The notes beneath the pieces were generated by a model. That model saw only the letters and a list, made by a program, of their open reading frames with translations, was not told the DNA's origin and made no database searches. Shown here piece by piece: positions 20,097 through 62,202 of a stretch of 64,000 nt of DNA. The translations under genes and the position numbers were made by a program. The stretch spans positions 186,001 to 250,000 of IMG/VR virus record IMGVR_UViG_3300042402_002641, one strand, 5' to 3'. Position 1 is the first letter of the stretch. Each line of letters opens with the position of its first letter. Origin of the DNA: a virus.

Positions 20097-20097
20097 T

Positions 20098-36667: not shown

Positions 36668-36680
36668 TTAGAGAACAAGA

Positions 36681-38531: not shown

Positions 38532-38551
38532 TGAATACAGGAGCGCAATAA

Positions 38552-40822: not shown

Positions 40823-40824
40823 TC

Positions 40825-41181: not shown

Positions 41182-41213
41182 TAAGTAATAATAATGACTA
41201 GCGGAGTATATCA

Positions 41214-43022: not shown

Positions 43023-43023
43023 T

Positions 43024-43920: not shown

Positions 43921-43923
43921 TCG

Positions 43924-43931
43924 ATTAAATA
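43924..43931 (+). promoter_or_regulatory. Weak late promoter candidate ATTAAATA
   Basis: ATTAAATA keeps the TAAATA core (six of eight bases) and ends 24 bases before ATG 43956, matching the spacing of other late promoters here. The gap between the paralogous genes has no other obvious signal. Confidence 0.35.
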
Positions 43932-43955
43932 TAAGACTTAATCAAAGACAAACGC

Positions 43956-44900
43956 ATGCCAGTAAATGACATTATCACCCAAGCAGAATACAACAATATC
44001 AGAAACAAAGTACTCGGAGTGCTCGGCACAGGATCGGGGAATTCTGGCTATGGACAACCCTTTGTCAGCACCGCGGTAGCAGAAGGAAATTCTATTACCA
44101 TTAATGAGTATGCTAATCTAAGATACGATATTTTCAGTGCTTATGTACATCAGGTAGGATCTAATCCTTCTACAGTTACCGTAGTAGAAGGTAACACGGT
44201 AAGATTTAGTGCTATAGATGCGCCAGTTACTACATACGATACACTAGCTAATACACTCATATCAAATAGATTTAATGTAGGAGCTGGACAATCAGCTATA
44301 AACATTCCCACCGCACCTTCAAGTACTACCTGGCCTGGAATATATGGTGCAGATTGGTCTAGCCTTATACAGTGTACAGTGACTGCTACATGGCCTGATA
44401 GTAATCAAGCTAGATATTTTTGGAACAGTGGTGGTCAGATTCGATTTACAGCATCTCGTACCGGCACTACTCCTACTACTCAGAACACACAATGGACGTC
44501 TATTCTCAGCACTGCTGGTACACAGACCTATGGCGGTAATAATCCTGGCACTGGTACTAGTCCCAATGATGGCCAAAACTGGTACAGATGCACCAACACT
44601 CGACAGTTGTGGTACAGTCAAAGCGGATCTAGTCCTTACGGATCTAATACCTATAAAATATATGCTAGAACTTTAGATGCAAGCAATAACTCTACAGGCA
44701 CCGCTCGCCAAGGTGAATGGCACATAGAGTTTGTTGATAACTATACAGATCCAGGTGGCCCTGCTCCAGGAGATTCAGTAGACGGAACATTCACAGTATC
44801 AGTTAGTTTACAATATGCTACAGGTATTTTGGTACCGCCAAGTCAGGGTAGTTTTACAGTAACATTGCCTACAGTTACTATTTCAGCTATAACACCTTAA
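43956..44900 (+). CDS. Virion structural protein B of a tandem pair
   Basis: This 314-residue protein, MPVNDIITQAEYNNIRNKVLGVLGTG..., is a paralogue of the preceding gene with the same order of blocks and similar length. It is richer in Ser/Thr/Gly and aromatic residues (NWYRCTNTRQLWYSQSGSSPYG). It was probably formed by gene duplication followed by divergence; the two now look different enough at the DNA level to be stable. Role as for the preceding gene. It is the last clear virion gene before the accessory operon. Confidence 0.65.
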   Translation: MPVNDIITQAEYNNIRNKVLGVLGTGSGNSGYGQPFVSTAVAEGNSITINEYANLRYDIFSAYVHQVGSNPSTVTVVEGNTVRFSAIDAPVTTYDTLANTLISNRFNVGAGQSAINIPTAPSSTTWPGIYGADWSSLIQCTVTATWPDSNQARYFWNSGGQIRFTASRTGTTPTTQNTQWTSILSTAGTQTYGGNNPGTGTSPNDGQNWYRCTNTRQLWYSQSGSSPYGSNTYKIYARTLDASNNSTGTARQGEWHIEFVDNYTDPGGPAPGDSVDGTFTVSVSLQYATGILVPPSQGSFTVTLPTVTISAITP

Positions 44901-44957: not shown

Positions 44958-45308
44958 ATGAAGGATCAACTCAAAAAAGCTTTGGAGTTTGCTAATTACA
45001 GGCAGACGTTTTCAATTCAACGTAAGATTCTAAAAGAAAAAATCGCAGCCAAGTTAACACTAGGTTATAATGGTGGACTATTTCAAATTGACAGAACGCT
45101 TCTGACTTTTATAGAAATGTTGCTAGTCAAAGGAAGAAGCAGCGGAGTTGTATTATTAGATACAAACGAAACCCCTATAATGATCGAGGATTTAGTTGCG
45201 TTTCGAGATGAATGCTTTGATAGGTATTTCGAAGCCACTAGTGAGTATTTTGAACAAGACCAAAATCTCAAAAAAAGTAGATCAGTAGAAAAATTGCTAG
45301 AACAATGA
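44958..45308 (+). CDS. Conserved phage protein of unknown function
   Basis: This 116-residue protein, MKDQLKKALEFANYRQTFSIQR..., is helical and charged. It contains LTLGYNGGLFQIDRTLLTFIEMLLVKGRSSGVVLLDTNETPI, seen as a compact alpha/beta core, and a Lys-rich C-terminal helix. I recall similar proteins in marine T4-like phages, annotated only as hypothetical. It ends 4 bases inside the next gene (ATGA overlap), so it heads the accessory operon. The hairpin before it suggests translation only from a late transcript. Confidence 0.7.
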   Translation: MKDQLKKALEFANYRQTFSIQRKILKEKIAAKLTLGYNGGLFQIDRTLLTFIEMLLVKGRSSGVVLLDTNETPIMIEDLVAFRDECFDRYFEATSEYFEQDQNLKKSRSVEKLLEQ

Positions 45309-46165
45309 ACAAAGGTATATTGATCTACGCTCATAATAATCGCACTGTGGACTATGCATTAATGGCGATTATTTCTGGAGGATTAGCTAAAAAATATCTT
45401 GGACAGCCTGCGTCGTTGGTTACTGACCAAGCCACGTTAGATTGGATGATAGAATCTAAGATATACACTCGTGCTCAAACAATTTTTGAAAATATTTTTA
45501 TAGTTTCTAGACCCGAGTCAACTAATTCTAGAGGGTTGTATGATGGCACAGAACGCAGTACAGTTCAATTTATGAACGGTAACAGAAATTCCGCCTACGA
45601 CATTACTCCATATCAACGAACACTTTTGATTGACGCAGACTTTCTGATATTTTCCAATAGACTGGCAGAATATTGGGACATAGATGATGATTTTATGATT
45701 GGCGAATCTATTAATGATATCTATGACAATCAACGACTAGGATATCATGATAACTATGTTTCGGACGTAGGTATTAAATTGTATTGGGCTACTACTGTGA
45801 TGTTCACAAAAAATGATAATTCAAAAATGTTTTTTGATCTTGTGCGCCATGTTAAGGATAACTATCAATACTATGCCGACACATACAGATTTGATTCAAA
45901 ACAATACAGAAATGATATTGCATTTAGCGTGGCCAAACACGTATTAGCAGGATTTGAACAGTCACCATTGGGATGTTTACCGCCTGTGTTAACATCATTA
46001 GACAGAGATATACTACACTCTGTAGATGCCGATAAATTAACGTTTCTGATATCCCCGAAATTAGATGAGAATTATTGTGCGGCTTCGATACAGAATATTG
46101 ACATTCATATAATGAATAAACAGAGTATAGTAAGACATAGCGATAAATTACTGGAGCTGATATGA
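45305..46165 (+). CDS. GT-A glycosyltransferase-like protein
   Basis: The product has 286 residues. LLIDADFLIF (about 107-116) supplies an Asp-x-Asp motif, used by GT-A transferases to hold the metal and nucleotide sugar. The N-terminus GILIYAHNNRTVDYALMAIISGGLAKK fits the start of a nucleotide-binding Rossmann-like half. ALMAIISGGLAKKYL followed by VTDQATLDWM resembles GT8-like or virus-specific transferases. There is no membrane segment, so it would act in the cytoplasm. It overlaps its neighbours by 4 bases on each side (ATGA). Substrate unknown; a structural relative without transferase activity cannot be excluded. Confidence 0.6.
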   Translation: MNKGILIYAHNNRTVDYALMAIISGGLAKKYLGQPASLVTDQATLDWMIESKIYTRAQTIFENIFIVSRPESTNSRGLYDGTERSTVQFMNGNRNSAYDITPYQRTLLIDADFLIFSNRLAEYWDIDDDFMIGESINDIYDNQRLGYHDNYVSDVGIKLYWATTVMFTKNDNSKMFFDLVRHVKDNYQYYADTYRFDSKQYRNDIAFSVAKHVLAGFEQSPLGCLPPVLTSLDRDILHSVDADKLTFLISPKLDENYCAASIQNIDIHIMNKQSIVRHSDKLLELI

Positions 46166-47001
46166 AATTCGGATATCTGTTAATAGTAGCAGAGAATGAA
46201 TTTGTGGACTATCTACAGTTAGCCTATGCCTTGGCTATCAGTATTAAAAATACACAAAAACCTGGGTTTGATCAAGTGGCACTAGTGATCAATGACAAGC
46301 AAAAACTTAAAGATTTAAACAGCAGTTGGGTCTTTGATCATGTTATAGAATGGAATCAAGAAACATTCTGGGATGGTCGTAGCTGGATGGATCAGTTGAC
46401 ACCTTTTGACCACACAGTATGCTTAGATGTTGACATGCTGTTTATGCGTGACTACAGTCATTGGGTCGAATACTTTATTGAAAACAGCGAATTATATGTT
46501 GCTAACAAAAGCTACACCTATCGAGGAGAGATAGCTGTTGATCATCATTATCGAAAGACATTTATAAAAAACGATCTCCCTAATCTTTACAGCATGTATA
46601 CCTTTTTTAAAAAAGATAGCGAAGCGGTTAAAGAATTTTTTGATCTAGGAAGATATATTATAAAAAATCCTATAGAATTTTCAAATATTTTTTTATCGGA
46701 TCATAAACCTCGAGTTGTAGGTACAGATGAATCCTTTGCCTTGGCAGCTAAAATATTAGATATTACCGATGATATTGCATATCCTTTAGAGTTTCCCCGA
46801 GTTGTACATATGAAACCTATGATACAGAATTGGCCATGGCCTGCTGATTGCTGGAGTGATCATGTAGGATTTTATCTAAATCAAAAAGGAAAACTAAAGA
46901 TAGGAAATTATCAACAACATGATATTGTTCATTATGTGGAAAAAGATAAAATTAACAAGGAAATGATCAATATTCTCGAGGAAGTTTTATGGAAGAAATA
47001 A
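46162..47001 (+). CDS. GT-A glycosyltransferase-like protein, second type
   Basis: This 279-residue protein has the same plan as the preceding one. FGYLLIVAENEFVDYLQLAYALAISIKN is followed by TVCLDVDMLFMRDYSHW, with Asp-Val-Asp at 89-91. GTDESFALAAKIL and RVVHMKPMIQNWPW in the C-terminal half fit the acceptor side of a GT8-like fold, with a His that could complete metal binding. It overlaps the preceding gene by 4 bases and the next by 13, so it is part of one coupled operon. Donor and acceptor are not known. Confidence 0.6.
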   Translation: MKFGYLLIVAENEFVDYLQLAYALAISIKNTQKPGFDQVALVINDKQKLKDLNSSWVFDHVIEWNQETFWDGRSWMDQLTPFDHTVCLDVDMLFMRDYSHWVEYFIENSELYVANKSYTYRGEIAVDHHYRKTFIKNDLPNLYSMYTFFKKDSEAVKEFFDLGRYIIKNPIEFSNIFLSDHKPRVVGTDESFALAAKILDITDDIAYPLEFPRVVHMKPMIQNWPWPADCWSDHVGFYLNQKGKLKIGNYQQHDIVHYVEKDKINKEMINILEEVLWKK

Positions 47002-47606
47002 TTGATTTTGATAATTGGCTTGCAAATTTCAAATTACCTCCTGTAAAATTTGTTGCGGTTTTTAATCCCGACACCGGCGCAGTAGTTAGTGTAGGACCTA
47101 GTCATGCCTTTAAAGATCAAAAACACAAAATATCTATAGATAAAGAATTGGCAGAATCTATAATTAATGCAGAAATTAAAATTAACAACTGCATAGTTGA
47201 TATAAATTCAAATACTTTAGAAGTAGCAGAAATAAAAAATACCTATAAGATAGACGATGTGCTGCATAGAATTATTTCTAAGAAAGATTCTGAAATAAAA
47301 AACCCAGATATCTATATTAAATATGATTCAAAACTTAATACTTTTAAAATAGAAATGTCTTCAGAATTTGGGGGAACACGTAAGGCTAGGGCTGGGATAA
47401 AGAAAAGAAATATTGTATGGGATGGTGACACTGAAATGCAATTTTTTATTACAGAATACAACGACCCAAACTTGCTTTTTGAAACAGTAAGTGTTACAAT
47501 TAACGATCTTACTGGAAACCATAAATTGATTACAGGTTTTAACTATCCTAAATTTAGTGTGTACACTAGACGCTTGTTTAAAAACTATATGATAGAATAT
47601 AAATGA
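46989..47606 (+). CDS. Unknown protein inside the glycosyltransferase operon
   Basis: The product has 205 residues. The N-terminal part contains PPVKFVAVFNPDTGAVVSVGPSHAFKDQK and the C-terminal half looks beta-rich (FKIEMSSEFGGTRKARAG, KRNIVWDGDTEMQFFITEYNDP). No catalytic motif is visible. The beta-rich half could form a binding domain. I do not recognise a family. Overlaps with both neighbours show that it is co-translated with the transferase-like genes, so it may be a carrier, partner or substrate. That is inference only. Confidence 0.65.
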   Translation: MEEIIDFDNWLANFKLPPVKFVAVFNPDTGAVVSVGPSHAFKDQKHKISIDKELAESIINAEIKINNCIVDINSNTLEVAEIKNTYKIDDVLHRIISKKDSEIKNPDIYIKYDSKLNTFKIEMSSEFGGTRKARAGIKKRNIVWDGDTEMQFFITEYNDPNLLFETVSVTINDLTGNHKLITGFNYPKFSVYTRRLFKNYMIEYK

Positions 47607-48520
47607 AAATTATTGAATTTGATGTTGTATTTTTAAGCTACGATGAACCTAATGCAGATCTACATTATGCAGATTTATGCAACAAAGTTCCTTGGGCTAA
47701 ACGTGTACACGGTGTCAAGGGATCTGATCATGCTCATAAAGCCGCAGCAGAAGCTAGCGAAACAGATTGGTTTATCACTGTTGATGCTGACAACATTGTA
47801 GATCCTAAGTTTTTTAATATTGACCTAGATATGAGTGATCCTAAGATTCAAGTCTACGGATGGTGCGGTCGAAATGTTATCAACGGCCTTCGATACGGCA
47901 ATGGCGGTCTAAAAATTTGGAAAAAAGACTTTGTGCTTAATATGAAAACGCATGAAAACTCAGACAGCGATCGTGGACAGGTAGATTTCTGTTGGGAAGA
48001 TGGATATCGAAATTTTCCTTTGAGTTTTAGCGATAGTGTTATTACTGGAAGTCCTTTTCAGGCCTGGAGAGCAGGGTTCCGTGAAGGTGTTAAAATGACC
48101 TTACTCGACGGAGTTAGGGTTCCAGCCCAAGAAATACAACAGAGAATATGGTGGCATAATATTCATAGGTTACGTATGTGGTCCACAGTTGGTAGCCATG
48201 AAGAAAACGGAATCTTTGCAGTTTATGGTGCAAGATTGGGAACCTGGATGGCTAATTGCACCAACTGGAATTATGTTGACGTTAGAGATTTTGAAATACT
48301 TAGAGGTATATGGAATCAATACGGAAGACCATATGAAGAAGTTAATGGCGAAGGTCTCGTAGACGCAATAAAAGATCTTGGAGACAAAATAAAAATTAAT
48401 TTAGGATTAGATTGGCCTTGGTTAGATGAAAGTCAAAGTAAGTATACTTTAGATCTCTACAATGAAACTATGAATTTAAACGATACATATTTTAAAATGC
48501 CGGTACCTGCCAATGTATGA
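47603..48520 (+). CDS. GT-A-like protein with TVDADN motif
   Basis: The product has 305 residues. FDVVFLSYDEPNADLHYADL starts a GT2-like nucleotide-binding half, and WFITVDADNIVDPKF (about 56-70) carries Asp-Ala-Asp at 61-63. Further blocks are RNVINGLRYGNGGLKIWKKDF and SPFQAWRAGFREGVKM. All four recur in the C-terminal half of the next protein, so the two are paralogues. It overlaps both neighbours. It probably transfers a sugar or is derived from such an enzyme; the acceptor is unknown. Confidence 0.6.
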   Translation: MKIIEFDVVFLSYDEPNADLHYADLCNKVPWAKRVHGVKGSDHAHKAAAEASETDWFITVDADNIVDPKFFNIDLDMSDPKIQVYGWCGRNVINGLRYGNGGLKIWKKDFVLNMKTHENSDSDRGQVDFCWEDGYRNFPLSFSDSVITGSPFQAWRAGFREGVKMTLLDGVRVPAQEIQQRIWWHNIHRLRMWSTVGSHEENGIFAVYGARLGTWMANCTNWNYVDVRDFEILRGIWNQYGRPYEEVNGEGLVDAIKDLGDKIKINLGLDWPWLDESQSKYTLDLYNETMNLNDTYFKMPVPANV

Positions 48521-50180
48521 TATTTTTTATGTTTCTAAAACTGCAGGTAATGACAGTGACTGGGAATATATCAAGTCTAAATATCCCCTTGCGCATCGGT
48601 TAACCAACATAAGATCTTTTGACGACATTAAAATTAATTCTTTCACTAAGATGTTTTGGGTCATCTGGGATGATATACATCTAATAGACACATTTGATCT
48701 AACAGAATATAAAGCCACTAAGTGGGACGACATGTATGTTCACGTTTTTAAAAACGGAGAACATCACGATGGAGTATGTTTATTTCCTAAAGTATTGAAC
48801 ATCTCGCAACGAGAGTTTTATCATAGATTTTTTACAGAAAAAAAAGAAATAGATATTTTAGCGAGCGTTCCTAAGAAATACAATGTATACTCACCTTCAA
48901 ATTATGACGAGTATTTGTCTATTGATGATGAAATGTTTTGGTTAGTTTGGCCAGAAGTTGAAATTATAGACGAATCAGTTTTTAAATTGTATTTTAGTCA
49001 TCATAATACCTACGATCGTAGAGAAAATCATATTTTTAAAAACACATGTAATAACGATGAATCGTATATGAGTGGAGTTATTCTCTGTAGTAAGTATAAA
49101 CAAATTTCATCTCGAGAGTTTGAAAAACAATATGTGATCGATAAAAAAGAACATGATATAATTGCGAGTAGATTTCGATATCCGACGTATGTTATTCACA
49201 GCTATGAACAATATCTAGAAATTCTTAAAAATTTAAAAAATAAAATGTTTTGGGGTATATGGCCCGAAGTTGAAATAATTGACACAGAAATCTTTGATTT
49301 TTACTTCGATCCCAACAATGGAACATACGACCATGATAGAAAAGAAAATCATACATTTAAACATCTGTTTAACAACACCGAAATTTATATTAACGGTGTA
49401 GTATTATTTTCTAAAGAAAAACAAATTAGTCAAAGAGAGTTTATTCATAGATTTTTGATTAATAAAAAAGAACACGATAGAATAGTATCAAAACATCGAC
49501 TATATGATGTTGTGTTTATATCTTACAACGAATCTAATGCAGATGAAAATTACAATAAGTTACTTAATAAGTGTCCTAGAGCAAAAAGAATACACGGGGT
49601 TGAAGGTATACATCAAGCACACATTGAAGCAGCATCTATTTGTAATACAGATATGATTTGGATAGTTGACGGAGATGCAATTATTGAAGATAGTTTTGAT
49701 TTTGATATAGTTATGTCTAGTTATGATATTAATTGTGTACATGTGTGGCGTAGTCGTAATCCTATTAATGATTTAGAATATGGCAATGGCGGTGTTAAGT
49801 TATTGCCTAGAAAGTTAACATTAGATATGGACAAAACTACTCCGGATATGACAACAAGCATATCTAAAAAGTTTAAAGTCATGAATACTGTGTCAAATAT
49901 TAATTCTTTTAATACTGACGAATTTACTACGTGGAGATCGGCATTTAGAGAATGCTGCAAATTAGCCAGTAGAGTAATTAAACGGCAATATGAAGACGAA
50001 ACACAACAGCGATTAGATATTTGGTGCAGTGTAGGGAAAGATAAACAATACGGCGATTTTGCAATAATGGGTGCTAAAATGGGTAGACAATACGGATTAG
50101 ATAATAAAAATAATCCTGAAGCGTTGCAAAAGATTAATGATTTTAAATGGCTAAGGAATATATTTAATAATGCTTACTGA
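48513..50180 (+). CDS. Three-repeat plus GT-A-like fusion protein
   Basis: The product has 555 residues. Three tandem units of about 95-105 residues begin near 47, 140 and 245 with MFWVIWDD, MFWLVWPEVEIID and MFWGIWPEVEIID. Each is followed by a short F-x-x-YF element, a VF/IF-x-N stretch, a G-V core and a closing Q-I/S-S/Q-RE-F. A GT-A-like domain follows from about 328 (LYDVVFISYNESNADENY, WIVDGDAII near 385-391, RNPINDLEYGNGGVKL), homologous to the preceding gene. The repeats may bind an acceptor or assemble a scaffold. The DNA is very AT-rich: a hand-counted line at 48841 has about 28% GC, and one at 50161, across the junction with the next gene, has 17%. Confidence 0.6.
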   Translation: MYDIFYVSKTAGNDSDWEYIKSKYPLAHRLTNIRSFDDIKINSFTKMFWVIWDDIHLIDTFDLTEYKATKWDDMYVHVFKNGEHHDGVCLFPKVLNISQREFYHRFFTEKKEIDILASVPKKYNVYSPSNYDEYLSIDDEMFWLVWPEVEIIDESVFKLYFSHHNTYDRRENHIFKNTCNNDESYMSGVILCSKYKQISSREFEKQYVIDKKEHDIIASRFRYPTYVIHSYEQYLEILKNLKNKMFWGIWPEVEIIDTEIFDFYFDPNNGTYDHDRKENHTFKHLFNNTEIYINGVVLFSKEKQISQREFIHRFLINKKEHDRIVSKHRLYDVVFISYNESNADENYNKLLNKCPRAKRIHGVEGIHQAHIEAASICNTDMIWIVDGDAIIEDSFDFDIVMSSYDINCVHVWRSRNPINDLEYGNGGVKLLPRKLTLDMDKTTPDMTTSISKKFKVMNTVSNINSFNTDEFTTWRSAFRECCKLASRVIKRQYEDETQQRLDIWCSVGKDKQYGDFAIMGAKMGRQYGLDNKNNPEALQKINDFKWLRNIFNNAY

Positions 50181-51531
50181 AGAAAAAAAATACAAAAAAG
50201 TTATTGAAATTTTAGATTCTGTTAGTCCGAGTTTTTGTCTAGCAAAATGGCATCAATTAACATTGTATCTACAAAATGGATTTAATCATAGCTGTCACCA
50301 TCCTAGTCCTCATCAGGTGCCGTTGGAGGAACTAGCTGTAAATCATAAAGCGTTGCATAACACACAATTTAAAAAAAAGCAGATGCAAAAAATGTTAGAT
50401 GGCGAGCGTCCTAGTGAATGTGATTATTGCTGGAAAGCAGAAGATGCAGGCAGAATAAGTGATCGTGTTTATAAGAGTGCATCGTCATGGGCAAAAATTA
50501 ATTTTGATTCTGTAATAGAAAATAAAACAGCAGATGTTAATCCCGCTTATCTAGAAATTAGTTTTAGCAATGTTTGCAATTTTAAATGTGCTTATTGTAG
50601 TCCAGATTTAAGCAGCCAATGGTTTGAAGAAATTAAAACTCACGGCCCGTATCCAACATCATACAAATACAATAATTTTGATTGGTTTGAAAAAACAGGA
50701 AAAATGCCTATTAAACATAGTGACTATAATCCTTATGTTGAAGCTTTTTGGAAATGGTGGCCTGAGTTATATAGAGATCTACATACCTTAAGATTGACCG
50801 GAGGTGAACCATTATTAAGCAAAGATGCTTGGAAAATGATAGATTATATTGAGGACAATCCTAATAAAAATTTAGTGTTTGCTATCAATACTAACTTATG
50901 TGTACCTGATGAGTTAGTTGATAAAATAATATCGAAGATACAAAATATTTCTATAGATACTAAAGAATTTCAGTTTTTTACCAGTGGTGAAGCACTAGGA
51001 GCTCCTGCTGAATATATCAGATATGGTCTTGATTACAACAAATGGTCTGCTAATCTAGAAAAAGTTTTAGATAACACAAATGTTATTGTTGCAATTATGA
51101 CTACAGTTAACTTAACCAGTGTAACTACCTATGCCGACTTTTTGAGATACATTTTAGATCTCAGAGGAAAATATAATAAAAACGCCGATTTTAATAAAGT
51201 TCAGTTCATGACAAACTTTTTAAGATACCCTGAATTTTTATCTTTGACACTACTAGATCGAGAAACTAAAGCAACATTTACTCAAGATATCGAAACTCTA
51301 ATAGCAGAGAGAGGTGTCTGGGACGGCTTTGCTACATTAACTTTTTCTGAAGTCGATCAACTACGGCGCATGCTAGATTATATGAATTCTTCAATAGATG
51401 ATGACAAATTAACATTATTAAGAACGGATTTTAAATCGTTTGTTGACGAATATGACCGTAGACGAAATACTAATTTTAATCAAGTATTTCCTGAATTAAC
51501 TAACTTTTACAACCTATGCAACAAGACATAA
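50170..51531 (+). CDS. Radical SAM protein 1, N-terminal twitch type
   Basis: The product has 453 residues. Radical SAM motif CNFKCAYC supplies Cys136, Cys140 and Cys143 (C-x3-C-x2-C), ligands for the 4Fe-4S cluster that cleaves SAM. TLRLTGGEPLL is the SAM-binding GGE motif. Before the core, Cys23, Cys42, Cys84 and Cys87 (SFCLAKWHQ, SCHH, ECDYCW) fit an N-terminal twitch-like domain that can hold an extra cluster. Enzymes of this broad type modify peptides, sugars or cofactors; the substrate is not predictable here. It starts 11 bases inside the preceding gene. Its closest relative is the next gene, with the same spacing of all cysteines. Confidence 0.8.
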   Translation: MLTEEKKYKKVIEILDSVSPSFCLAKWHQLTLYLQNGFNHSCHHPSPHQVPLEELAVNHKALHNTQFKKKQMQKMLDGERPSECDYCWKAEDAGRISDRVYKSASSWAKINFDSVIENKTADVNPAYLEISFSNVCNFKCAYCSPDLSSQWFEEIKTHGPYPTSYKYNNFDWFEKTGKMPIKHSDYNPYVEAFWKWWPELYRDLHTLRLTGGEPLLSKDAWKMIDYIEDNPNKNLVFAINTNLCVPDELVDKIISKIQNISIDTKEFQFFTSGEALGAPAEYIRYGLDYNKWSANLEKVLDNTNVIVAIMTTVNLTSVTTYADFLRYILDLRGKYNKNADFNKVQFMTNFLRYPEFLSLTLLDRETKATFTQDIETLIAERGVWDGFATLTFSEVDQLRRMLDYMNSSIDDDKLTLLRTDFKSFVDEYDRRRNTNFNQVFPELTNFYNLCNKT

Positions 51532-52844
51532 GAAAAACAATAGAGCTCATCAACGATATCAGTCCTAGTTTTTGTGCGGCCAAATGGTATAATGCCACTA
51601 TCTGGTTAGGGAATGGTCGCACCGCCAGTTGCCATTTGCCTCCGGCGCACAGTATTCCCTTAGAAGAAATTAAAAATAATCCAAGTGCTTTACATAATAC
51701 GACATTTAAAAAACATCGAAGACTAGAAATGATTCAAGGCAAAAGATGCAAAGAATGTGCATACTGCTGGACTGTAGAAGATAATGCTTCTCCTGATGTA
51801 TACAGTGATCGTGTCTATAAGACCAGGATTTATCAAGAAAACGAAATATTGCAATTAGCCAGACTTGATCCTCAAGCAGATATTGATCCTAAAACATTAG
51901 AAATTAGTTTTGATAATTTATGTAATTTAAGTTGCAGTTATTGTAATTCAGAATTCAGCACAACCTGGGCCAGCGATATTAAACTTAATGGCCCGTATAC
52001 TGAATTAAAGACTCAGGGCGGTGGTGCATTTCAAAATTCAGGTGAACATGCATTGCCCTATGGCATTAAGAATGAAAATAATCCCTATATAGAAGCTTTT
52101 TTTAAATGGTTTCATGCTAGCCTTAAAAACAATTTACAAGAGCTTAGAATTACCGGAGGGGAACCTACACGAAGTCCTTGGTTTTGGAAATTATTAGACG
52201 AATGCAAAGATACAAAATTTGATTTTGCAGTTAACAGTAATCTTATAATGGACCAAAATAAACTTGCACAACTCATTGATGCTAGTAAAAAATTTAAAAA
52301 GTTTGATTTATACACCAGCGGAGAGGGCTATGGCGCTCACGGTGAGTTTATTAGATGGGGATTAGATTATAGTTTATGGAGAAAAAATTTAATTCAGTTT
52401 GCTCAAGAAGGCAAATACAGTATGATCCATGTAATGATGACTATTAGTGCTTTGAGCATTTGGTCAATAACTGAATTCATGACAGATATGCTAGAATTAA
52501 GAAAACAATTTGGTGGTCATCAATTCCACATGAGTCTTAATTTAGTGAGATTTCCTAGCTTTCAAAATTTGAATGTGTTGCCGATAGATCTAAAACAAAT
52601 CCAGGTAAATAAAATCGAAACGTGGCTCAGTGATGCTGTTGGGTTAAGTTCATCCGAACAAAATCAAATAGAAAGAATCGTTGAGTATCTTAAAAATGTT
52701 GATCGCAGTCAAGAAGACACAGATAGCCAAGAAAATAAACAGCATGATTTAAAAAAATTTACACAACAATATGCTGATAGAAAAAATGTTGATCTCTCAA
52801 CAGTATTTCCAAAAGAATTCACACAATGGTTTAACACAATATGA
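51516..52844 (+). CDS. Radical SAM protein 2, N-terminal twitch type
   Basis: The product has 442 residues. CNLSCSYC gives Cys136, Cys140 and Cys143, the same positions as in the preceding protein, and LRITGGEPTRSPW is the GGE region. The N-terminal cysteines (Cys20, Cys39, Cys78, Cys81, Cys84; SFCAAKWYN, RCKECAYCW) repeat the neighbour's pattern. Both share SDRVYKT/SDRVYKS and FxSGE-xx-G-A blocks, so they are paralogues that still overlap by 16 bases. It has its own divergent C-terminal third, with QEDTDSQENKQ linker-like sequence. It may act with radical SAM protein 1 as a pair. Confidence 0.8.
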   Translation: MQQDIRKTIELINDISPSFCAAKWYNATIWLGNGRTASCHLPPAHSIPLEEIKNNPSALHNTTFKKHRRLEMIQGKRCKECAYCWTVEDNASPDVYSDRVYKTRIYQENEILQLARLDPQADIDPKTLEISFDNLCNLSCSYCNSEFSTTWASDIKLNGPYTELKTQGGGAFQNSGEHALPYGIKNENNPYIEAFFKWFHASLKNNLQELRITGGEPTRSPWFWKLLDECKDTKFDFAVNSNLIMDQNKLAQLIDASKKFKKFDLYTSGEGYGAHGEFIRWGLDYSLWRKNLIQFAQEGKYSMIHVMMTISALSIWSITEFMTDMLELRKQFGGHQFHMSLNLVRFPSFQNLNVLPIDLKQIQVNKIETWLSDAVGLSSSEQNQIERIVEYLKNVDRSQEDTDSQENKQHDLKKFTQQYADRKNVDLSTVFPKEFTQWFNTI

Positions 52845-54055
52845 ACGAAGATAAATTCTGTATAATACCTTGGATACACCTTAACACAGAACCCAATGGG
52901 CGTGTTAAACCGTGTTGTGCATATTTTGGAGAAGAGTCGGGAAATTTAAAAAATACTACACTAGAAGAAATATGGAATAACGAACATACTAAATCTATGC
53001 GTAGAAGCTTTTTAGAAAATAAAATCCCAGAAGGATGTCTAACCTGTACTAAAAAAGAAAGCAGTGGCGGAGTAAGCTACCGGATGGCAGTCACTGAAAG
53101 ATTCAGTCATCATATCGAAAAAGCTAAAAGTAATACATTGCCCGATGGTACCTATGAAACATTTGAAATAATTTTTTGGGATTTTAGATTTAGTAATATC
53201 TGTAACTTTAAATGCCGTATGTGTGGCCCCGGCGCAAGCAGTTCTTGGTACGACGATTTTAGTCCGGAAGAAAAGAAAACTAACATAAAATTCTTAGACA
53301 GTTCTTACTATGGAACTGATTTAATGAAATATGTTGACCAGTTTATCGATAGTGTTGAAGAAATTTATTTTGCAGGCGGTGAACCGTTGCTTATGGCTGA
53401 ACATTATCAAATATTAGATAAGTTAATTTCTAAAGAACGCTATGATGTATTTTTAAGATACAACACCAACATGAGTACTATTAAGTATAAAGACTATGAC
53501 TTAATCAACATATGGAAAAGATTTAAGAGCGTGAAAATATTTGCCAGTATTGACGGTATAGAAGAAAACGCAGAATACAGCAGATCAGGCACGGACTGGC
53601 CAAAGGTAGAAGAAAATTTAAAAAAACTGGTAAACTCTAAAGTTGACTACGTTGTATCTAGTACTATAAACATCTTTAATGTTTTTAATTTTACACACTT
53701 AGTAGACAGACTAATAGAATTAAAAATGTCAACTAGAAAGATGTTAGTAAGTCATGTTAACTGGCCTCATTACTACATGACTTCAATTCTGCCGGAAGAT
53801 ATAAAGGATAAAATAAGATTACAGTTAGACGAACACCTAGAAAAAATAACCCCAACAATTACAGAAGAAGAAAGTAGGTGGCTTGGTAACTTATACAACG
53901 AGATTAAATTTTATCTAATACCTACAACTTCACCAGAAGAAACTGTTAAATTGCGGAAAAAATTTAAGTATGATACTGTTAAATTAGATAGTATCAGAAA
54001 AGAAGATATTAGAATCGCTGCGCCCGAATTAGCTGAATGGTTTGATACATTATGA
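52841..54055 (+). CDS. Radical SAM protein 3, N-terminal twitch type
   Basis: The product has 404 residues. FCIIPWIHLNTEPNGRVKPCCAY (segments around Cys7, Cys25, Cys26) and EGCLTC (Cys66, Cys69) form the typical N-terminal twitch/SPASM-like cluster domain. CNFKCRMC (Cys121, Cys125, Cys128) is the radical SAM motif, and IYFAGGEPLLM is the GGE motif. It belongs to a different subgroup from proteins 1 and 2 but the same subgroup as protein 4. ATGA overlaps link it to both neighbours. No maturation target is apparent. Confidence 0.85.
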   Translation: MNEDKFCIIPWIHLNTEPNGRVKPCCAYFGEESGNLKNTTLEEIWNNEHTKSMRRSFLENKIPEGCLTCTKKESSGGVSYRMAVTERFSHHIEKAKSNTLPDGTYETFEIIFWDFRFSNICNFKCRMCGPGASSSWYDDFSPEEKKTNIKFLDSSYYGTDLMKYVDQFIDSVEEIYFAGGEPLLMAEHYQILDKLISKERYDVFLRYNTNMSTIKYKDYDLINIWKRFKSVKIFASIDGIEENAEYSRSGTDWPKVEENLKKLVNSKVDYVVSSTINIFNVFNFTHLVDRLIELKMSTRKMLVSHVNWPHYYMTSILPEDIKDKIRLQLDEHLEKITPTITEEESRWLGNLYNEIKFYLIPTTSPEETVKLRKKFKYDTVKLDSIRKEDIRIAAPELAEWFDTL

Positions 54056-55260
54056 ACGATAAATTTATTTGCGACTTTCCCTGGGTGCATCTAAGTGTGT
54101 TTCCACAAGGTAATTGTACAATTTGTTGTGTAGCCAAACATTCCGGAAAAGGTAACGGGCATTCATGGAATCGTATTAGCGAAGATAAAACTAAAACTGT
54201 TACAGTAATGAATAGCACAGTTTCAGAAATCATTAACTGTGATAATTACAGGGCAATTAGATTAGATATGCTTGCTGGAAAAGTTCCGACAGCATGCGAA
54301 GGATGTCACCAGGTAGAGCAAGCAGGCGGCAGAAGTAAGCGACAATTAGAAACTAATCGAAATTTAGATCATGCGGCATTAACTGCCGATGATGGAGCTA
54401 TCAAATCAGACTTACGACACATAGAACTACGCCTAGGCAACTTTTGTAATCTGAAATGTCGAAGCTGCAATGCAGATTCTAGCACAAGTTGGATTCAAGA
54501 CTATTATAAACTTAAAGATACAGTAAAGTTAGCCAGCGGTTATCATTGGATTAAAAGCAATCCCGAATTTAGCTTTGACTGGGTCGATGATGAATCGTTT
54601 TACGACCAGTTAACAGAGCTAGCACCTAATCTTGAACAAATACATATCAGTGGCGGCGAACCATTTTTAGTGCCTACGCATTTTAAATTGTTAGAAAAAC
54701 TTGTTCGCGAAGGCAAGACTGATATTGCTATACACTATCATACCAATTTGAATTACAAGTGGGAGAAAATTACTCCGGCATTAGACCTGCTTACACAATT
54801 CAAAGAAGTACATATTAATTTTAGTATCGACGATGTAGAAGAACGAAATACTTATATTAGAAGTTTAAGTGATTGGAATTTAACTATAAGTAATTTAAAA
54901 TTATTTCTAACACACTACAATTTCATTTTTGCTGTTACTCAAACTGTAAGTGTATATAACTTTATGTATGTAGAAGAATTAACACAATATCTTAAAGAAA
55001 ACAATATTTACATTAAAGTGCGTTTGAATCATGTGCAGAGTCCGGATTACTTAGATGCTAATGTATTGCCTAAGCAAGTACGCCAAGATAAGATTAATTC
55101 GTTACAAGGAATTGTCATTCCCCGTATATGGGAAGATTTATACGGTCATTATTACAATCCGGAAGCTAACGGCCAGTGGGATTATTTTAAATACTTTACT
55201 GAAAAAATCGACGCAGTACGTAACGAAAACTTAAATGATATTTTTCCAAAACTTGCATGA
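54052..55260 (+). CDS. Radical SAM protein 4, N-terminal twitch type
   Basis: The product has 402 residues. FICDFPWVHLSVFPQGNCTICC (Cys7, Cys22, Cys25, Cys26) and ACEGC (Cys82, Cys85) match the cluster domain of protein 3. CNLKCRSC gives Cys132, Cys136 and Cys139, and IHISGGEPFLV the GGE motif. A variable insertion between the two halves of the N-terminal domain (GKGNGHSWNRISEDKTK) distinguishes it. It overlaps protein 3 and the next gene by ATGA. Four intact sets of cluster ligands in one operon argue for four active enzymes rather than decayed copies. Confidence 0.85.
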   Translation: MNDKFICDFPWVHLSVFPQGNCTICCVAKHSGKGNGHSWNRISEDKTKTVTVMNSTVSEIINCDNYRAIRLDMLAGKVPTACEGCHQVEQAGGRSKRQLETNRNLDHAALTADDGAIKSDLRHIELRLGNFCNLKCRSCNADSSTSWIQDYYKLKDTVKLASGYHWIKSNPEFSFDWVDDESFYDQLTELAPNLEQIHISGGEPFLVPTHFKLLEKLVREGKTDIAIHYHTNLNYKWEKITPALDLLTQFKEVHINFSIDDVEERNTYIRSLSDWNLTISNLKLFLTHYNFIFAVTQTVSVYNFMYVEELTQYLKENNIYIKVRLNHVQSPDYLDANVLPKQVRQDKINSLQGIVIPRIWEDLYGHYYNPEANGQWDYFKYFTEKIDAVRNENLNDIFPKLA

Positions 55261-56057
55261 AATTTATTTTTTTAAAAACTGGTGATTATTTAGACCTAGA
55301 GCCTAATAATACTCCTATTGCGTCTGCGTGGTTTGATTATATTTTTTCTAAGCAGATGAATATGAGTTATTTTGCTAGAGATGCATTGTTTGTAACTCGA
55401 ACTAATGACACTATTAAAGATCTAAATTCCGCAATCGATATTGTACATCAATTTGCTATAGAAAAGAACTTGCCCCAACTTATTTTTAATAAAATTATTG
55501 ACCTTGACCAATCATGGCTTAATGCTTCTCATAAAAAGTGGGTAAAATACACACACGAATTAAAAAACATTGTTAACGGCGACGATACAAAACAACACTA
55601 TCCTGCCGTTGTAAAATCTTGGCAAAACATTAATCTGTTTATCCATTCGTTAGAAAACTATTACTCGGCTTATTTTACTAATACTAAAGGCGCATATCTA
55701 GAAGACGTCAAAGTCAATATAAGACCAGAAGATTGCGAGTACGCACAACATGACTTAATTCTAAGATTTGACGATTTAGGTAAACACCAATACGATCAAT
55801 GGTTGACAGGCAGTAGTGTTGACTGGGAAACTAGTAACTACAAGACAATATCGGCGAGATTTGAATACGCATATAATCCGCAAACAATTAAAGGATTACA
55901 GCCAAATCAAGATTATATTAACTGGTGTTCTAAAAACAACTTACAAGCAATGCCGCCGTTTATTATTTTAGGAAATTTTAAAAAGAATAGATGGGACGTT
56001 AAACAACTTATGCATCAAAATCTATCGAAAGGATTAGAAGTAGGATTTGAGTTATGA
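55257..56057 (+). CDS. Unknown protein following the radical SAM genes
   Basis: This 266-residue protein, MKFIFLKTGDYLDLEPNNTPIASAWFDYIFSKQ in its first segments, is mostly helical and aromatic-rich. It contains HLxFDDLGKHQYDQWLTGSSVDW-like text in the second half (LILRFDDLGKHQYDQW) and no cluster-binding cysteine pattern. I do not recognise a family. Tight ATGA overlaps with radical SAM protein 4 and the SGNH-like gene place it in the same pathway. A partner protein or modification target would fit, but nothing in the sequence decides this. Confidence 0.6.
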   Translation: MKFIFLKTGDYLDLEPNNTPIASAWFDYIFSKQMNMSYFARDALFVTRTNDTIKDLNSAIDIVHQFAIEKNLPQLIFNKIIDLDQSWLNASHKKWVKYTHELKNIVNGDDTKQHYPAVVKSWQNINLFIHSLENYYSAYFTNTKGAYLEDVKVNIRPEDCEYAQHDLILRFDDLGKHQYDQWLTGSSVDWETSNYKTISARFEYAYNPQTIKGLQPNQDYINWCSKNNLQAMPPFIILGNFKKNRWDVKQLMHQNLSKGLEVGFEL

Positions 56058-56899
56058 AGATATATGTAAACGGTGATAGTTTCACCGACGGTGACGGTCT
56101 AGCTGATGCAGAAACATTCCCGGGCATGTACCCGGGACATCATCATGCAGATGGAAATCTAATTGTAGATCGCCGGTGGTCAAATGCTCGGCACGATATA
56201 CTGTCAAATGACTTGTCATTATGGGACACATATCGTAATAATAATCGGAAATATGTTTGGGCAACAATATTAGGAGAGCTTGTTGGTGCTAGTGTGGTTA
56301 ATAATGCCGTTGGTGGTTCTTGTATGATGGGAATTGCAACTAGGACTATTGCAGATCTTAGCTCAATACACCTACGTGCAAATTTGCCAGACTACGTCTT
56401 TATAGGATTAACAATGTCTGATCGTCTAGGATGGTACGATAAAGAACATACAGAAAACAATCATACAGGAAGTTGGGTTAAAACAGCTATACCCGCATTC
56501 AGCGAAAGAATGTTACCCGAACACTATAAAAAGATGTTCATGGCTACATGGGCAACACTGTCTGACGAAGAATTGCTTATAAATTATCTAAAAGAATGTT
56601 TACAAATTAAAAATTATGTTAAGCGAAGAATTGGCCGAGATCCTATTTTTTTAAATACCTCATACCAATTTTGGGAGTATAAAAATATAGTTCAATCATC
56701 TAAAAATCAATGGCTTAGAATGCTTTGGTTCGAGTTATTAGAATTTGATAAGATTAACCCCCAATGGTTTAATTCTGGATCGTTTGACATTGTAACAGCT
56801 TGTGGACATGCTATTCCGGAAGTTCATTCTCAATTTGCAAGAGATATAGCTAGAGAACACTTTGGTTGGGGCAAAAGTCCGGTTGACAAAGATGCCTAG
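56054..56899 (+). CDS. SGNH-hydrolase-like protein 1
   Basis: The product has 281 residues. YVNGDSFTDGDG near the N-terminus places Ser9 in the GDS block. NNAVGGSCM (about 83-91) supplies the Gly/Asn oxyanion blocks. VFIGLTMSDR (about 113-122) stands where the third block is expected, and CGHAIPEVHSQFA (about 252-264) could provide the catalytic His. SGNH enzymes remove or transfer acyl groups, often acetyl groups on sugars, which suits the glycosyltransferase context. No signal peptide is visible. The C-terminus is KSPVDKDA, a motif that recurs in DNA downstream of the second SGNH-like gene. Confidence 0.65.
   Translation: MKIYVNGDSFTDGDGLADAETFPGMYPGHHHADGNLIVDRRWSNARHDILSNDLSLWDTYRNNNRKYVWATILGELVGASVVNNAVGGSCMMGIATRTIADLSSIHLRANLPDYVFIGLTMSDRLGWYDKEHTENNHTGSWVKTAIPAFSERMLPEHYKKMFMATWATLSDEELLINYLKECLQIKNYVKRRIGRDPIFLNTSYQFWEYKNIVQSSKNQWLRMLWFELLEFDKINPQWFNSGSFDIVTACGHAIPEVHSQFARDIAREHFGWGKSPVDKDA
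56876..56895 (+). repeat. 20-base direct repeat, copy 1 (end of SGNH-like gene 1)
   Basis: This stretch starts AGTCC and contains TTGACAAAGA. It matches 57778-57797 at 18 of 20 bases. In this copy it encodes SPVDKD and the first bases of the final Ala codon at the very end of SGNH-like protein 1. Confidence 0.7.
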
Positions 56900-57788
56900 A
56901 ATTTTTCTTCCAACAGTTAACGAATATCGAGAAATAAATCGCATTGTAGCATTTGGGTGTAGCCAAACCGCAGGCTCAGAACTTCTTGATTCAAAAAGAT
57001 ATCCAAACATTCCTGATGTAGAATTAAAAAAACACAGCCTAGGAATAGAAGGATGGCACAAATATTCAGAGAATGAATCAAATCTGCCGTTACATTTTAA
57101 AATACAAGACGAAGAACGTATGTTAGCGTGGCCTGCACAACTAGCAAAACTTTATAACATTCCTATTCATAACTATGCCGAGCCAGCAACTGGCAATGAG
57201 CAACAGATGGCACAATTCTTAAAAGCAAAATCTGAAGGTGTTATTAGTAACGACACACTAGTGCTCTGGGGATTTACTAGTATGAATCGAGGCTTTTGGA
57301 TTGACCAAGAACAAGGATGTTCATATTATCTGCTCGGTAATAACAAGATCTTTAAACAACCCGTTGACATAAACATGTTTAATGAAAAACTGTGGTATAA
57401 CGGTATAAATTCAGATTATATGTTAGCATGGAGATATTATCAAAGTTTATCTACTATCTTCCATTGGGCTAACGAAATATGTAACGAACAGTTTTTATTC
57501 ATTCAGGCATTACATTATTCACCAAGTTACGAACAATGGTCTGCTAAAATAGAAGGTCCAGTAAATCCAACGGTCGAGCTGTTAATGCAAAGATTTTGGG
57601 ATACTATAAAATACAATTACGAAATAAAATACCCAATTTTTAAAGATTTTGAGCAGACAAATCTGTTCACTTGGAGTAAAAGTATTGGCGGTCGACTAGG
57701 GTGCGGGCATCCAACATTAGATGCACATGAAAAATATGCACTTTTAATTAAAAATGAGCTTGACCGGTTAGAACAAGAGTCCAGTTGA
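56892..57788 (+). CDS. SGNH-hydrolase-like protein 2
   Basis: This 298-residue protein is counted from ATG 56892 (MPRIFLPTVNEY); the longer frame begins at a TTG inside the previous gene and is less likely. IVAFGCSQTAGSE (about 18-30) has Ser24 in the nucleophile block, NYAEPATGNEQQ the Asn/Gly blocks, LVLWGFTSMNRGF the third block, and CGHPTLDAHEKYA a candidate Asp-x-x-His end. It probably arose with the preceding gene in the same functional role. Its last codons run out of frame with a KSPVDKDAE-coding stretch that directly follows, suggesting a small indel near 57770. Confidence 0.6.
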   Translation: MPRIFLPTVNEYREINRIVAFGCSQTAGSELLDSKRYPNIPDVELKKHSLGIEGWHKYSENESNLPLHFKIQDEERMLAWPAQLAKLYNIPIHNYAEPATGNEQQMAQFLKAKSEGVISNDTLVLWGFTSMNRGFWIDQEQGCSYYLLGNNKIFKQPVDINMFNEKLWYNGINSDYMLAWRYYQSLSTIFHWANEICNEQFLFIQALHYSPSYEQWSAKIEGPVNPTVELLMQRFWDTIKYNYEIKYPIFKDFEQTNLFTWSKSIGGRLGCGHPTLDAHEKYALLIKNELDRLEQESS

Positions 57789-57877: not shown

Positions 57878-58183
57878 TTAGAAAATATTCTTAGAGGAAT
57901 CAGTAATATCCTTCTTTAATCTTTCTACATCGACTTTAAAATCTATTTTTGTAATTTCGTTTTTGTATTCTTGAAGAGTGTTAAGTAGGATATCGGCAAT
58001 ATCCTCCGGTCTTTGTTTTTCTAATTCGGTATGAACATCTATTTCCCATACCCTGCCATCTTTGAATTCTAGATGTACTAGATCCAAATAGGCCACAGGC
58101 ATGGTATTCATATAGAGATCTTCAAAAACTTCCGGCCACTCTTTGACAAGATGTCGAGGTGGCCTAAACAACGGATTAGGCAT
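57878..58183 (-). CDS. Conserved small phage protein
   Basis: This 101-residue protein, MPNPLFRPPRHLVKEWPEVFEDLYMNTMPVAYL..., has a beta-like centre (LDLVHLEFKDGRVWEIDVHTEL) and a Lys/Asp-rich helical end. I recall similar proteins in marine T4-like phages but no assigned function. Its ATG overlaps the stop of the larger gene upstream by 8 bases, so both are made from one message. It is the last gene of the minus-strand block and converges on the accessory operon. Confidence 0.75.
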   Translation of the reverse strand: MPNPLFRPPRHLVKEWPEVFEDLYMNTMPVAYLDLVHLEFKDGRVWEIDVHTELEKQRPEDIADILLNTLQEYKNEITKIDFKVDVERLKKDITDSSKNIF

Positions 58184-61768: not shown

Positions 61769-62202
61769 TGATTTGTCTTCTTCACTGTTTTAATGTCTAT
61801 AACACCTGTGTTTACAGGGCCGCCAAAATCACCATCTACCACAACATTTGCACAAAGTTCACGGAACCAACGATCTACAATTTCTTCTTCTTTGTCACCA
61901 TCTTCACCGTATCCCTCTTGCTTTAATTGTAGCACAAATTGGTCATTCCAGTCAAGCTCAAAAAAGCCATTTCGTATGTTATCTTTATTGACATGGGTGT
62001 TTATCACACCAACCCATGCTTCTTTGCGTCTAGTAGCACGTTCTTTCGGCGAGAGTTTAGCAGTTTCTTCTGCTTGTTCGGCAGTTTTAGATGCAGCCTC
62101 AGCCGCAGCCAACCTGTTGTTGGCTTCTGCCAAATCCAGTTCAGCTTTTTGGATAGAAGCTTCTAGTTTATCCAGCCCAAATAGTTTTTTAATTATTTTC
62201 AT
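61765..62202 (-). CDS. Conserved phage protein with coiled-coil N-terminus
   Basis: This 145-residue protein starts at ATG 62202 (MKIIKKLFGLDKLEAS), where TAATG overlaps the queE-like stop. The ORF could start 4 codons earlier, inside the queE-like gene. Residues 15-60 are an Ala/Glu/Lys coiled coil. The rest has KEAWVGVINTHVNKDNIRNGFFELDWNDQFVLQL and IVDRWFRELCANVVV, a compact mixed fold familiar from marine T4-like phages. No known function. Confidence 0.7.
   Translation of the reverse strand: MKIIKKLFGLDKLEASIQKAELDLAEANNRLAAAEAASKTAEQAEETAKLSPKERATRRKEAWVGVINTHVNKDNIRNGFFELDWNDQFVLQLKQEGYGEDGDKEEEIVDRWFRELCANVVVDGDFGGPVNTGVIDIKTVKKTNQ

Follow-up and report, generated by a model that had tools for sequence, protein, structure and literature searches.

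Four consecutive N-terminal twitch radical SAM genes behind tail-fibre and glycosyltransferase genes of an uncultured phage: a possible role in glycan tailoring

The DNA analysed here, referred to as the window, comprises 64,000 nucleotides (positions 186,001 to 250,000) of IMG/VR record IMGVR_UViG_3300042402_002641, a genome of 280,019 bp that can be assigned to a phage because it contains baseplate and tail-fibre genes. As stated in the original prediction, the window harbors four consecutive intact radical SAM genes: four open reading frames, all with ATG start codons, follow each other on the plus strand between positions 50170 and 55260, successive frames overlap by 16, 4, and 4 nt, and each encodes complete CX3CX2C and GGEP motifs. 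They lie downstream of six tail-fibre-type open reading frames, three of which (34556-36667, 36681-38531, and 38552-40822) match tail-fibre/collar families in PHROG, while each of the six has a match in the fibre-type families c7 or c21/c5. The genes between 44958 and 56899 overlap by 4-16 nt, an overlap that may reach 38 nt in the last pair. A scan for promoters and terminators gave no clear enrichment over shuffled sequences. The features are:

34556-44900, plus strand: tail-fibre/host-recognition genes upstream of the glycan and radical SAM genes (34556-36667, 36681-38531, 38552-40822, 41214-43022, 43024-43920, 43956-44900)
44958-45308, plus strand: conserved small protein of family c14, encoded between the fibre and glycosyltransferase genes (HMM E = 4e-53; position common to relatives)
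45305-46165, plus strand: GT8-like glycosyltransferase (family c4; joint c3/c4 profile against glycogenin, E = 3e-4; position common to relatives)
46162-47001, plus strand: GT8-like glycosyltransferase (family c3; same joint profile and E value; position common to relatives)
46989-47606, plus strand: fast-evolving protein (family c28), no function assigned (identity and dN/dS)
47603-48520, plus strand: GT2-like protein (family c2) with invariant D61/D63 (weak Pfam match of a relative, conserved residues, coupling to radical SAM genes)
48513-50180, plus strand: another GT2-like member of family c2, with additional repeats at its N-terminus (weak Pfam Glyco_tranf_2_3, E = 0.09; HMM c2, E = 6e-151)
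50170-51531, plus strand: radical SAM protein 1, class Ra1, 453 aa (NF033640, 347.8 bits; AF2 pLDDT 95.4; class from tree)
51516-52844, plus strand: radical SAM protein 2, class Ra2, 442 aa (NF033640, 282.6 bits; Ra2 clade support 100)
52841-54055, plus strand: radical SAM protein 3, class Rb, 404 aa (NF033640, 380.0 bits; AF2 pLDDT 94.5)
54052-55260, plus strand: radical SAM protein 4, a separate lineage within class Rb, 402 aa (NF033640, 334.6 bits; clade with positional counterparts)
55257-56057, plus strand: cassette-specific protein (family c48), no function assigned (4-nt overlap with radical SAM gene 4)
56054-56899, plus strand: SGNH/GDSL-like esterase or acyltransferase (weak Pfam GDSL, E = 0.02; HMM c15/c17, E = 6e-9/3e-11)
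56862-57788, plus strand: second SGNH-like protein, start codon uncertain (HMM c15, E = 6e-13; c17, E = 2e-11)
57878-58183, minus strand: gene of family c35, the conserved right-hand border of an exchangeable cassette (c2 and c35 bracket the cassette)

Comparison with radical SAM family models placed all four proteins, over their full length, above the 170-bit cut-off of NCBIfam NF033640 with the scores given above. This model stands for twitch domain-containing radical SAM proteins (N_Twi_rSAM), a named family without a function in its model, and shares with all four proteins the succession of N-terminal twitch and radical SAM core. Pfam PF04055 scores above its cut-off for proteins 3 and 4 and just below it for proteins 1 and 2. 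The published twitch pattern CX9-15GX4C-gap-CX2C (PMC6231123) is present N-terminal to CX3CX2C in all four proteins, here as CX12-13GX4C...CX2C, which upholds their assignment to the N-terminal twitch type. The SPASM motif CX2CX5CX3C was found in none of 604 relatives, i.e., SPASM proteins proper they are not. Twitch and radical SAM ligands correspond to C23/C42/C84/C87 and C136/C140/C143 in protein 1 and to C7/C25(C26)/C66/C69 and C121/C125/C128 in protein 3, and the N-terminal cluster cysteines of proteins 2 and 4 are laid out likewise. Motifs and cluster cysteines thus occur throughout as predicted, but the proposed number of four to five extra N-terminal cysteines is exceeded in protein 4. 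Judged from these residues, each protein retains one set of ligands for a SAM-binding [4Fe-4S] cluster and a second set, of four cysteines, for an auxiliary cluster. With one auxiliary cluster per protein, eight clusters are expected across the four proteins, and not more, as the wording “eight or more” had allowed.

Across 167 Rb and 98 Ra sequences (aligned, below 80% identity; for the classes see below) the ligands are conserved to at least 99%, so the combined twitch and radical SAM pattern is not a matter of chance, and ligand loss in most relatives, which would have spoken against a functional set, is not what we see. In a cruder screen, the full regular expression for both motifs matched 308 of 316 Ra and 220 of 288 Rb sequences; the shortfall in Rb concerns mostly the CX9-15GX4C half and probably stems from variable spacing. 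Fold matches of the predicted models are radical SAM enzymes, and the close matches in BFVD are other phage radical SAM proteins. No solved structure emerged as a full-length relative by fold (TM normalised to query at most 0.40); nearest to the Rb model, all partial and with TM of at most 0.40, are a thioether-forming sactisynthase, SkfB, SuiB, and anSME, and also BlsE and viperin. In the AF2 models of proteins 1 and 3 the twitch begins almost directly at the N-terminus.

BLAST clustering and a phylogenetic tree both separate proteins 1 and 2 (class Ra) from proteins 3 and 4 (class Rb), the same two subgroups that had been proposed originally. Paralogues within a locus share 27-35% identity and best cross-locus hits 60-68%; by these comparisons Ra and Rb are ancient classes and the four genes are not recent duplicates. 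The anticipated co-occurrence in other genomes was likewise found, in that ordered arrays recur across phage contigs: position within the array is kept in 162 of 169 best hits for Ra and in 105 of 116 for three-gene Rb arrays. In the tree, the Ra2 clade received a support of 100 and protein 4 groups with its positional counterparts. Ra1, Ra2, and the Rb proteins are, as far as sequence and gene order tell, distinct, separately conserved enzymes in a fixed order. Strong selection, also part of the prediction, is evident from the ligand conservation and from dN/dS values of 0.03-0.07 wherever dS is unsaturated, which indicate purifying selection; the c28 protein shows only 32-40% identity and a dN/dS of 0.32-0.55 where the radical SAM proteins are 69-90% identical. 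Two alignment-based scans with the radical SAM classes yielded at least 600 matches each, and homologous arrays have a wide distribution among uncultured viral contigs. A full-length Ra homologue was not found in 50,697 isolate phage records.

The general picture of the relatives is a stereotyped order of tail-fibre genes, two GT8-like genes, GT2-like genes, Ra, and usually Rb. A family member is present in 59 of 60 GT2-like loci that were retrieved independently and extend at least 1 kb downstream, the GT2-like gene is followed directly by a same-strand Ra gene in 64 of 71 cases, and, among 62 relatives with at least 5 kb of upstream sequence, 59 have fibre-type families ahead of the GT2-like gene. 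In 23 of 68 Ra loci, Ra follows an unrelated GT7 galactosyltransferase-like pair. The assignment of c2 as GT2-like is weak: it draws on a match of a relative to Pfam Glyco_tranf_2_3 (E = 0.03) and on the invariant D61/D63, and a PDB profile search with c2 returned nothing useful. Other neighbours in relatives encode a carbamoyltransferase, SGNH proteins, a UDP-glucose dehydrogenase fusion, a methyltransferase, and an APS-kinase-like protein, and several bacterial members lie near genes for asparagine synthase, PMT_2-like, MBOAT, GT2, and NTP-transferase proteins. Counting against a glycan role, some Ra arrays lie apart from any recognised glycosyltransferase (e.g., L046 and L351, both on contigs that are fragments), and at least one bacterial array (L131) adjoins ABC-transporter-type genes only. 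Glycosyltransferases beside tail-fibre genes with variable content mark the locus as a phage glycan/host-recognition island, with the GT2-like call as its weak element.

The variable content is located behind the GT2-like gene, where cassettes are exchanged: c2 and c35 bracket 30 different layouts in 38 loci. The c48 gene follows the same four radical SAM genes in L014, L037, and L042, and also in L046, where the genomic surroundings differ. Relative to c2/c35 the cassette is inverted in L037, L042, L245, L289, and L291 and, with other content, in L254 and L280. An invertible element was considered and rejected, as the arms detected were merely A+T-rich, imperfect (70-83%), and 21-40 nt long, and no convincing flanking repeat emerged. 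Nor is c48 (55257-56057) a counterpart of c8, a protein of 355 aa that follows arrays in other phages (0.5% probability in profile comparison); a PDB profile search with c8 gave nothing useful. A C-terminal FPEL-type motif was discarded as a docking signal common to the island proteins, since it is essentially confined to the radical SAM classes.

The substrate had been regarded as not evident; it is less opaque now because the neighbouring genes point to glycan tailoring. The glycan context of the array is supported; what follows on substrate, acceptor, and reaction is inference. Our preferred reading, to which we assign a probability of about one half, is that the four enzymes modify a glycan which the neighbouring glycosyltransferases synthesise and which is most likely attached to the tail fibre. 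The glycan would be assembled by the GT8-like and GT2-like enzymes, and Ra1 and Ra2 would act on it or on a nucleotide-sugar precursor by abstracting a hydrogen atom from a sugar carbon. BtrN (2-deoxy-scyllo-inosamine dehydrogenase), an aminocyclitol dehydrogenase whose twitch aligns with the N-terminal twitch of the Rb profile, has a four-cysteine twitch site for an auxiliary cluster in common with all four proteins, but its twitch is C-terminal and there is no match of the whole protein in sequence or fold. The auxiliary cluster might accept the electron, as has been proposed for BtrN (PMC9012708), and the outcome would be dehydrogenation or an epimerisation or deoxygenation following from it. 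A variable finish could be provided by the Rb enzymes together with the SGNH and c48 proteins, and in relatives by a carbamoyltransferase, further GT-like proteins, and a methyltransferase or UDP-sugar dehydrogenase. The tail fibre or another virion protein would be the likeliest carrier because the radical SAM and glycosyltransferase genes come after the fibre genes and are read in the same direction. With the downstream cassette exchanged, the exposed sugar would then differ, much as in serotype switching.

Peptides are the substrates of many characterised twitch/SPASM enzymes, and a polypeptide could accordingly be the substrate here, with thioether, C-C, or C-O crosslinks or epimerised or oxidised residues introduced into tail-fibre or other phage proteins or a RiPP-like peptide, and the glycosyltransferases acting on the modified residue or being unrelated. 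The best partial fold matches are indeed peptide-modifying enzymes, and fibre genes lie immediately upstream. RiPP maturases of the SkfB, SuiB, and CteB type, which share the radical SAM core and an auxiliary cluster domain, differ from the window proteins by the opposite domain order, the SPASM motif, an RRE, and an adjacent precursor gene. In the AF2 models, no N-terminal peptide-recognition domain (RRE) is obvious from predicted secondary structure; at this locus the overlap of the genes between 44958 and 56899 leaves no space in which a precursor could be encoded separately; and the annotated neighbour families are of sugar type and include no recognised peptidase or exporter. We consider a polypeptide substrate rather unlikely. 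The same glycan chemistry might be directed at a host surface polysaccharide (O-antigen or capsule), altered during infection to exclude other phages. Such a role was proposed for the glycosyltransferases that pelagimyophages carry in a comparable region (PMC7029224), bacterial members reside in polysaccharide-type clusters, and gene order alone does not prove the tail fibre over the host surface as acceptor. The location immediately after the tail-fibre genes in 59 of the 62 relatives with sufficient upstream sequence and the lack of any recognised lipid-carrier transferase, flippase, or membrane acyltransferase in the phage islands nevertheless make the host surface an unlikely target.

A pathway for a small molecule, for nucleotides, or for DNA modification, independent of the glycan genes (viperin-like nucleotide chemistry, hypermodified bases), finds an echo in weak profile and fold matches to viperin and MoaA. 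The scores for viperin model NF038283 are 21.4-25.7 bits against a cut-off of 180, the cut-offs of MoaA-like equivalogs are missed by far, and the genes sit beside fibre and glycosyltransferase genes, outside the nucleotide-metabolism block, all of which renders this pathway improbable. Selfish or redundant gene amplification, with no joint pathway, might be suspected in a hypervariable region where copy numbers differ, up to 16 proteins above the cut-off in one phage record; it is scarcely credible in view of positional orthology, conserved order, dN/dS far below 1, and intact ligands.

Parts of the system, which had been called undescribed, are on record. NF033640 is already named, although its name and description do not include the Ra1, Ra2, and Rb classes, their fixed order, or the coupling to glycosyltransferases, and we found no mention of the model in the open-access papers searched. 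A T4-like environmental virus with 12 radical SAM genes and Fe-S assembly genes (ATC/IscU), published in 2017 (PMC5332604), resembles our phage in gene content by this combination, but N-terminal twitch classes, their order, or a link to glycosyltransferases and tail fibres were not described. The host recognition cluster of pelagimyophages, another phage lineage, is a hypervariable region of tail-fibre genes in which GT8-type glycosyltransferases and radical SAM cassettes occur (2020; PMC7029224), the cassettes being mentioned solely as an indel that distinguishes two genomes. Distant Rb-type homologues are present in Vibrio phages KVP40 and K566 (Schizotequatrovirus and relatives), three of them close together in K566, but with 22-26% identity and not behind a fibre/glycosyltransferase module. 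No earlier report of ordered orthology or of a glycosyltransferase link for these radical SAM classes came to our attention. Ra1 and Ra2 as fixed, ordered partners of glycosyltransferases beside tail fibres turn what would be just many phage radical SAM genes into a testable pathway hypothesis, and the layout suggests the glycosyltransferase product or the fibre glycan as the first substrate to try.

The same genome encodes IscU, two A-type Fe-S carriers, and SOD. IscU occurs in 9 of 11 array-bearing records of at least 199 kb compared with 16 of 50,697 isolate records, and phage IscU and A-type carriers may supply part of the Fe-S clusters. We tentatively suggest, as a possibility rather than an expectation, that in some uncultured phages an ordered set of about five different twitch radical SAM enzymes, supplied by phage Fe-S proteins, equips the tail fibre with a new kind of sugar or sugar-protein linkage, and that cassette swaps change the fibre glycan type. 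If true, this would be a rare case of oxygen-sensitive radical enzymes being central to virion decoration in viruses and would offer a reason for the presence of IscU in large phages. Ra and Rb genes are also carried by Bacteriovoracales-type genomes, which is no evidence on the phage's host. Outside the window, where the genome was read in stretches, it contains a fifth, more distant member of the family.

The original prediction of four intact, overlapping radical SAM genes was borne out by ORF analysis, and each product is a full-length member of NCBIfam family NF033640, the twitch domain-containing radical SAM proteins (N-twitch), with scores of 283-380 bits, where the cut-off is 170. These genes and other features of the 280,019-bp IMG/VR virus record (G000:C1), of which the window covers bases 186001-250000, are as follows.

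Window 20074-33876: 4600-aa ORF that starts with GTG and lies between the baseplate wedge gene and the tail-fibre genes
Window 48513-50180: GT2-like protein in which several degenerate repeats (MFWxIW...EIID type) lie N-terminally of the GT-like domain and resemble shortened versions of a portion of it
Window 50170-55260, + strand: four consecutive radical SAM genes (proteins 1-4)
Window 62202-63056, - strand: further short ORF resembling radical SAM genes (Pfam E=1.5e-5, short of the cut-off), within the conserved block right of the cassette
Outside the window, about 262.8-264.7 kb of the record (L367:7838-9684): fifth, weaker and divergent N-twitch gene whose immediate neighbour is HODM_asu-like (PF11927, resembling the alpha subunit of haem-dependent oxidative N-demethylase), a surprising pairing in a phage

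Pfam found a radical SAM core in proteins 1-4, exceeding its cut-off in 3 and 4 only, and an N-terminal SPASM-type domain in the latter two. All four carry CX3CX2C, GGEP and the predicted N-terminal twitch cysteines (CX9-15GX4C...CX2C), a pattern from which each protein is expected to hold two clusters, one for SAM and an auxiliary one ligated by cysteines, eight in total. The two proposed subgroups were recovered when relatives were clustered, as class Ra (proteins 1 and 2) and class Rb (proteins 3 and 4). When relatives were searched for loss of cluster ligands, the ligand cysteines turned out to be kept in at least 99% of the sequences that share less than 80% identity (167 Rb and 98 Ra). 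The strong selection that had been suspected is likewise apparent from dN/dS values of 0.03-0.07 for proteins 1-4 against the cassettes of four loci (L014, L037, L042 and L046), figures that apply only where dS was estimable, several comparisons being saturated. These values resemble that of the first GT2-like protein and lie below those of the fast-evolving protein c28 and the SGNH genes. In another locus (L039:4027-5330), two ORFs of 274 and 140 aa take the place of an intact radical SAM gene 2; this is the only broken copy seen among close relatives and may be a sequencing error. AlphaFold models built from relatives' alignments were confident (pLDDT 94.5 for protein 3 and 95.4 for protein 1), and no full-length match to the modelled proteins was found among solved structures. 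The Rb profile matched the twitch domain of BtrN, which is C-terminal in that enzyme, whereas that of Rb is N-terminal.

Ra precedes Rb in most contiguous runs. Among cross-locus best hits at no more than 75% identity, array position was kept by 162 of 169 for two-gene Ra sets and by 105 of 116 between three-gene Rb sets, while median identity between paralogues of the same array is only 27% (Rb) or 35% (Ra). In a FastTree phylogeny with several long branches, whose deep order is less certain than its clades, protein 1 falls into the Ra1 class, protein 2 into a strongly supported Ra2 clade that includes bacterial sequences, and proteins 3 and 4 into two separate lineages. Taken together, these sequence comparisons bear the signature of different enzyme steps retained together, not of recent amplification.

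Gene order around the array is conserved: the tail-fibre genes are followed by a small protein, a pair of GT8-like genes, in some cases c28, and one GT2-like gene or two; then come Ra, usually Rb, and finally variable sugar-type genes. Since the first loci had been retrieved by the radical SAM proteins themselves, a second search was seeded with the GT2-like protein alone; it returned the best 80 loci, which are biased to close relatives, so that its fractions describe this phage group. A member of the radical SAM family was present in 59 of the 60 loci that extend 1 kb or more downstream, the sole exception having 1,024 bp, and in 64 of 71 the GT2-like gene was followed directly by an Ra on the same strand. 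When the search was seeded with Ra, 68 loci had at least 3 kb upstream; the GT2-like gene was present there in 29, an unrelated GT7 galactosyltransferase/laminin-G-like pair in 23, and neither in 16, a few of which are inverted cassettes beside a GT2-like gene. GT7-type loci also contain methyltransferase and GT2-type genes; in L333, L341 and L366, tandem pairs of proteins of about 470 aa upstream of Ra fuse the galactosyltransferase-like to a laminin-G-like lectin domain. The occurrence of one enzyme class in two unrelated glycosyltransferase settings argues for a sugar-linked role of Ra.

The stretch bounded by the last GT2-like gene and, on the right, by c35 (c23 where c35 is uncalled) has 30 different layouts among 38 loci, and 36 of these loci include at least one family member. 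The four-gene set plus the cassette-specific protein c48 occurs in the same orientation in the window and L014, inverted in L037, L042, L245, L289 and L291, and, in L046, at a different genomic site that lies downstream of a DNA-ligase-like gene. Its behaviour is thus that of a movable unit. No flanking repeat able to explain the inversion was found.

To the observed architecture, conservation, order and linkage of the array, family chemistry adds a plausible reaction: SAM cleavage would yield a 5'-deoxyadenosyl radical that takes a hydrogen atom from the substrate, and the four-cysteine auxiliary cluster may then accept the electron, as it is thought to do in BtrN (PMC9012708). The constant partners are glycosyltransferases and the variable ones are enzymes of carbamoyl-, SGNH-, methyl- and NDP-sugar type, a combination most simply explained by a sugar substrate; a polypeptide substrate appears unlikely. 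We give a probability of about 0.5 to the array tailoring a glycan, with a virion protein as leading acceptor; the same chemistry directed at the host surface is rather improbable, a little more so than the polypeptide.

Iron-sulfur supply may be encoded by the phage itself, which carries an A-type carrier-IscU-A-type carrier operon outside the window (L374:8894-9926, about 32.9-33.9 kb of the record) together with an Fe/Mn superoxide dismutase gene (L374:8339-8890), flanked on either side by ribonucleotide reductase genes. Of 20 tested virus records with arrays, 9 encode IscU, namely 9 of the 11 that reach 199 kb or more and none of the nine smaller ones, and only 16 of 50,697 isolate phage records have a match; genome size and fragmentation confound these comparisons. 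The presence of IscU fits the reported link between ATC/IscU and radical SAM-rich T4-like viral genomes (PMC5332604). Because the family is already named and radical SAM-rich phages have been reported, the array is not a categorically new object, and its designation as an undescribed system is not supported; for positional orthology, tight glycosyltransferase coupling and cassette exchange at a fixed locus, no report was found in the open-access literature searched.

Family members are present in many bacterial phyla. Four Bacteriovoracales/Oligoflexia-type MAGs (L172, L131, L130 and L133) have 10-17 N-twitch matches each, with mixed-strand arrays and, in two of the four, Ra types. Several bacterial loci adjoin polysaccharide-type genes (asparagine synthase, carbamoyltransferase, PMT_2-like, MBOAT, GT2, NTP-transferase) and others lack such neighbours; some genome-contig matches, L134, L140, L142 and L162 among them, evidently stem from phage contigs that binning had placed in MAGs. 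The baseplate wedge protein of our record is nearest to those of large myophages (e.g., Phosso, Atu_ph07, SCTP-2 and PA5oct; 35-37% identity). Another virus record, G010 (346,856 bp, the source of L085), encodes 16 N-twitch genes over the family cut-off, some of them far from its array.
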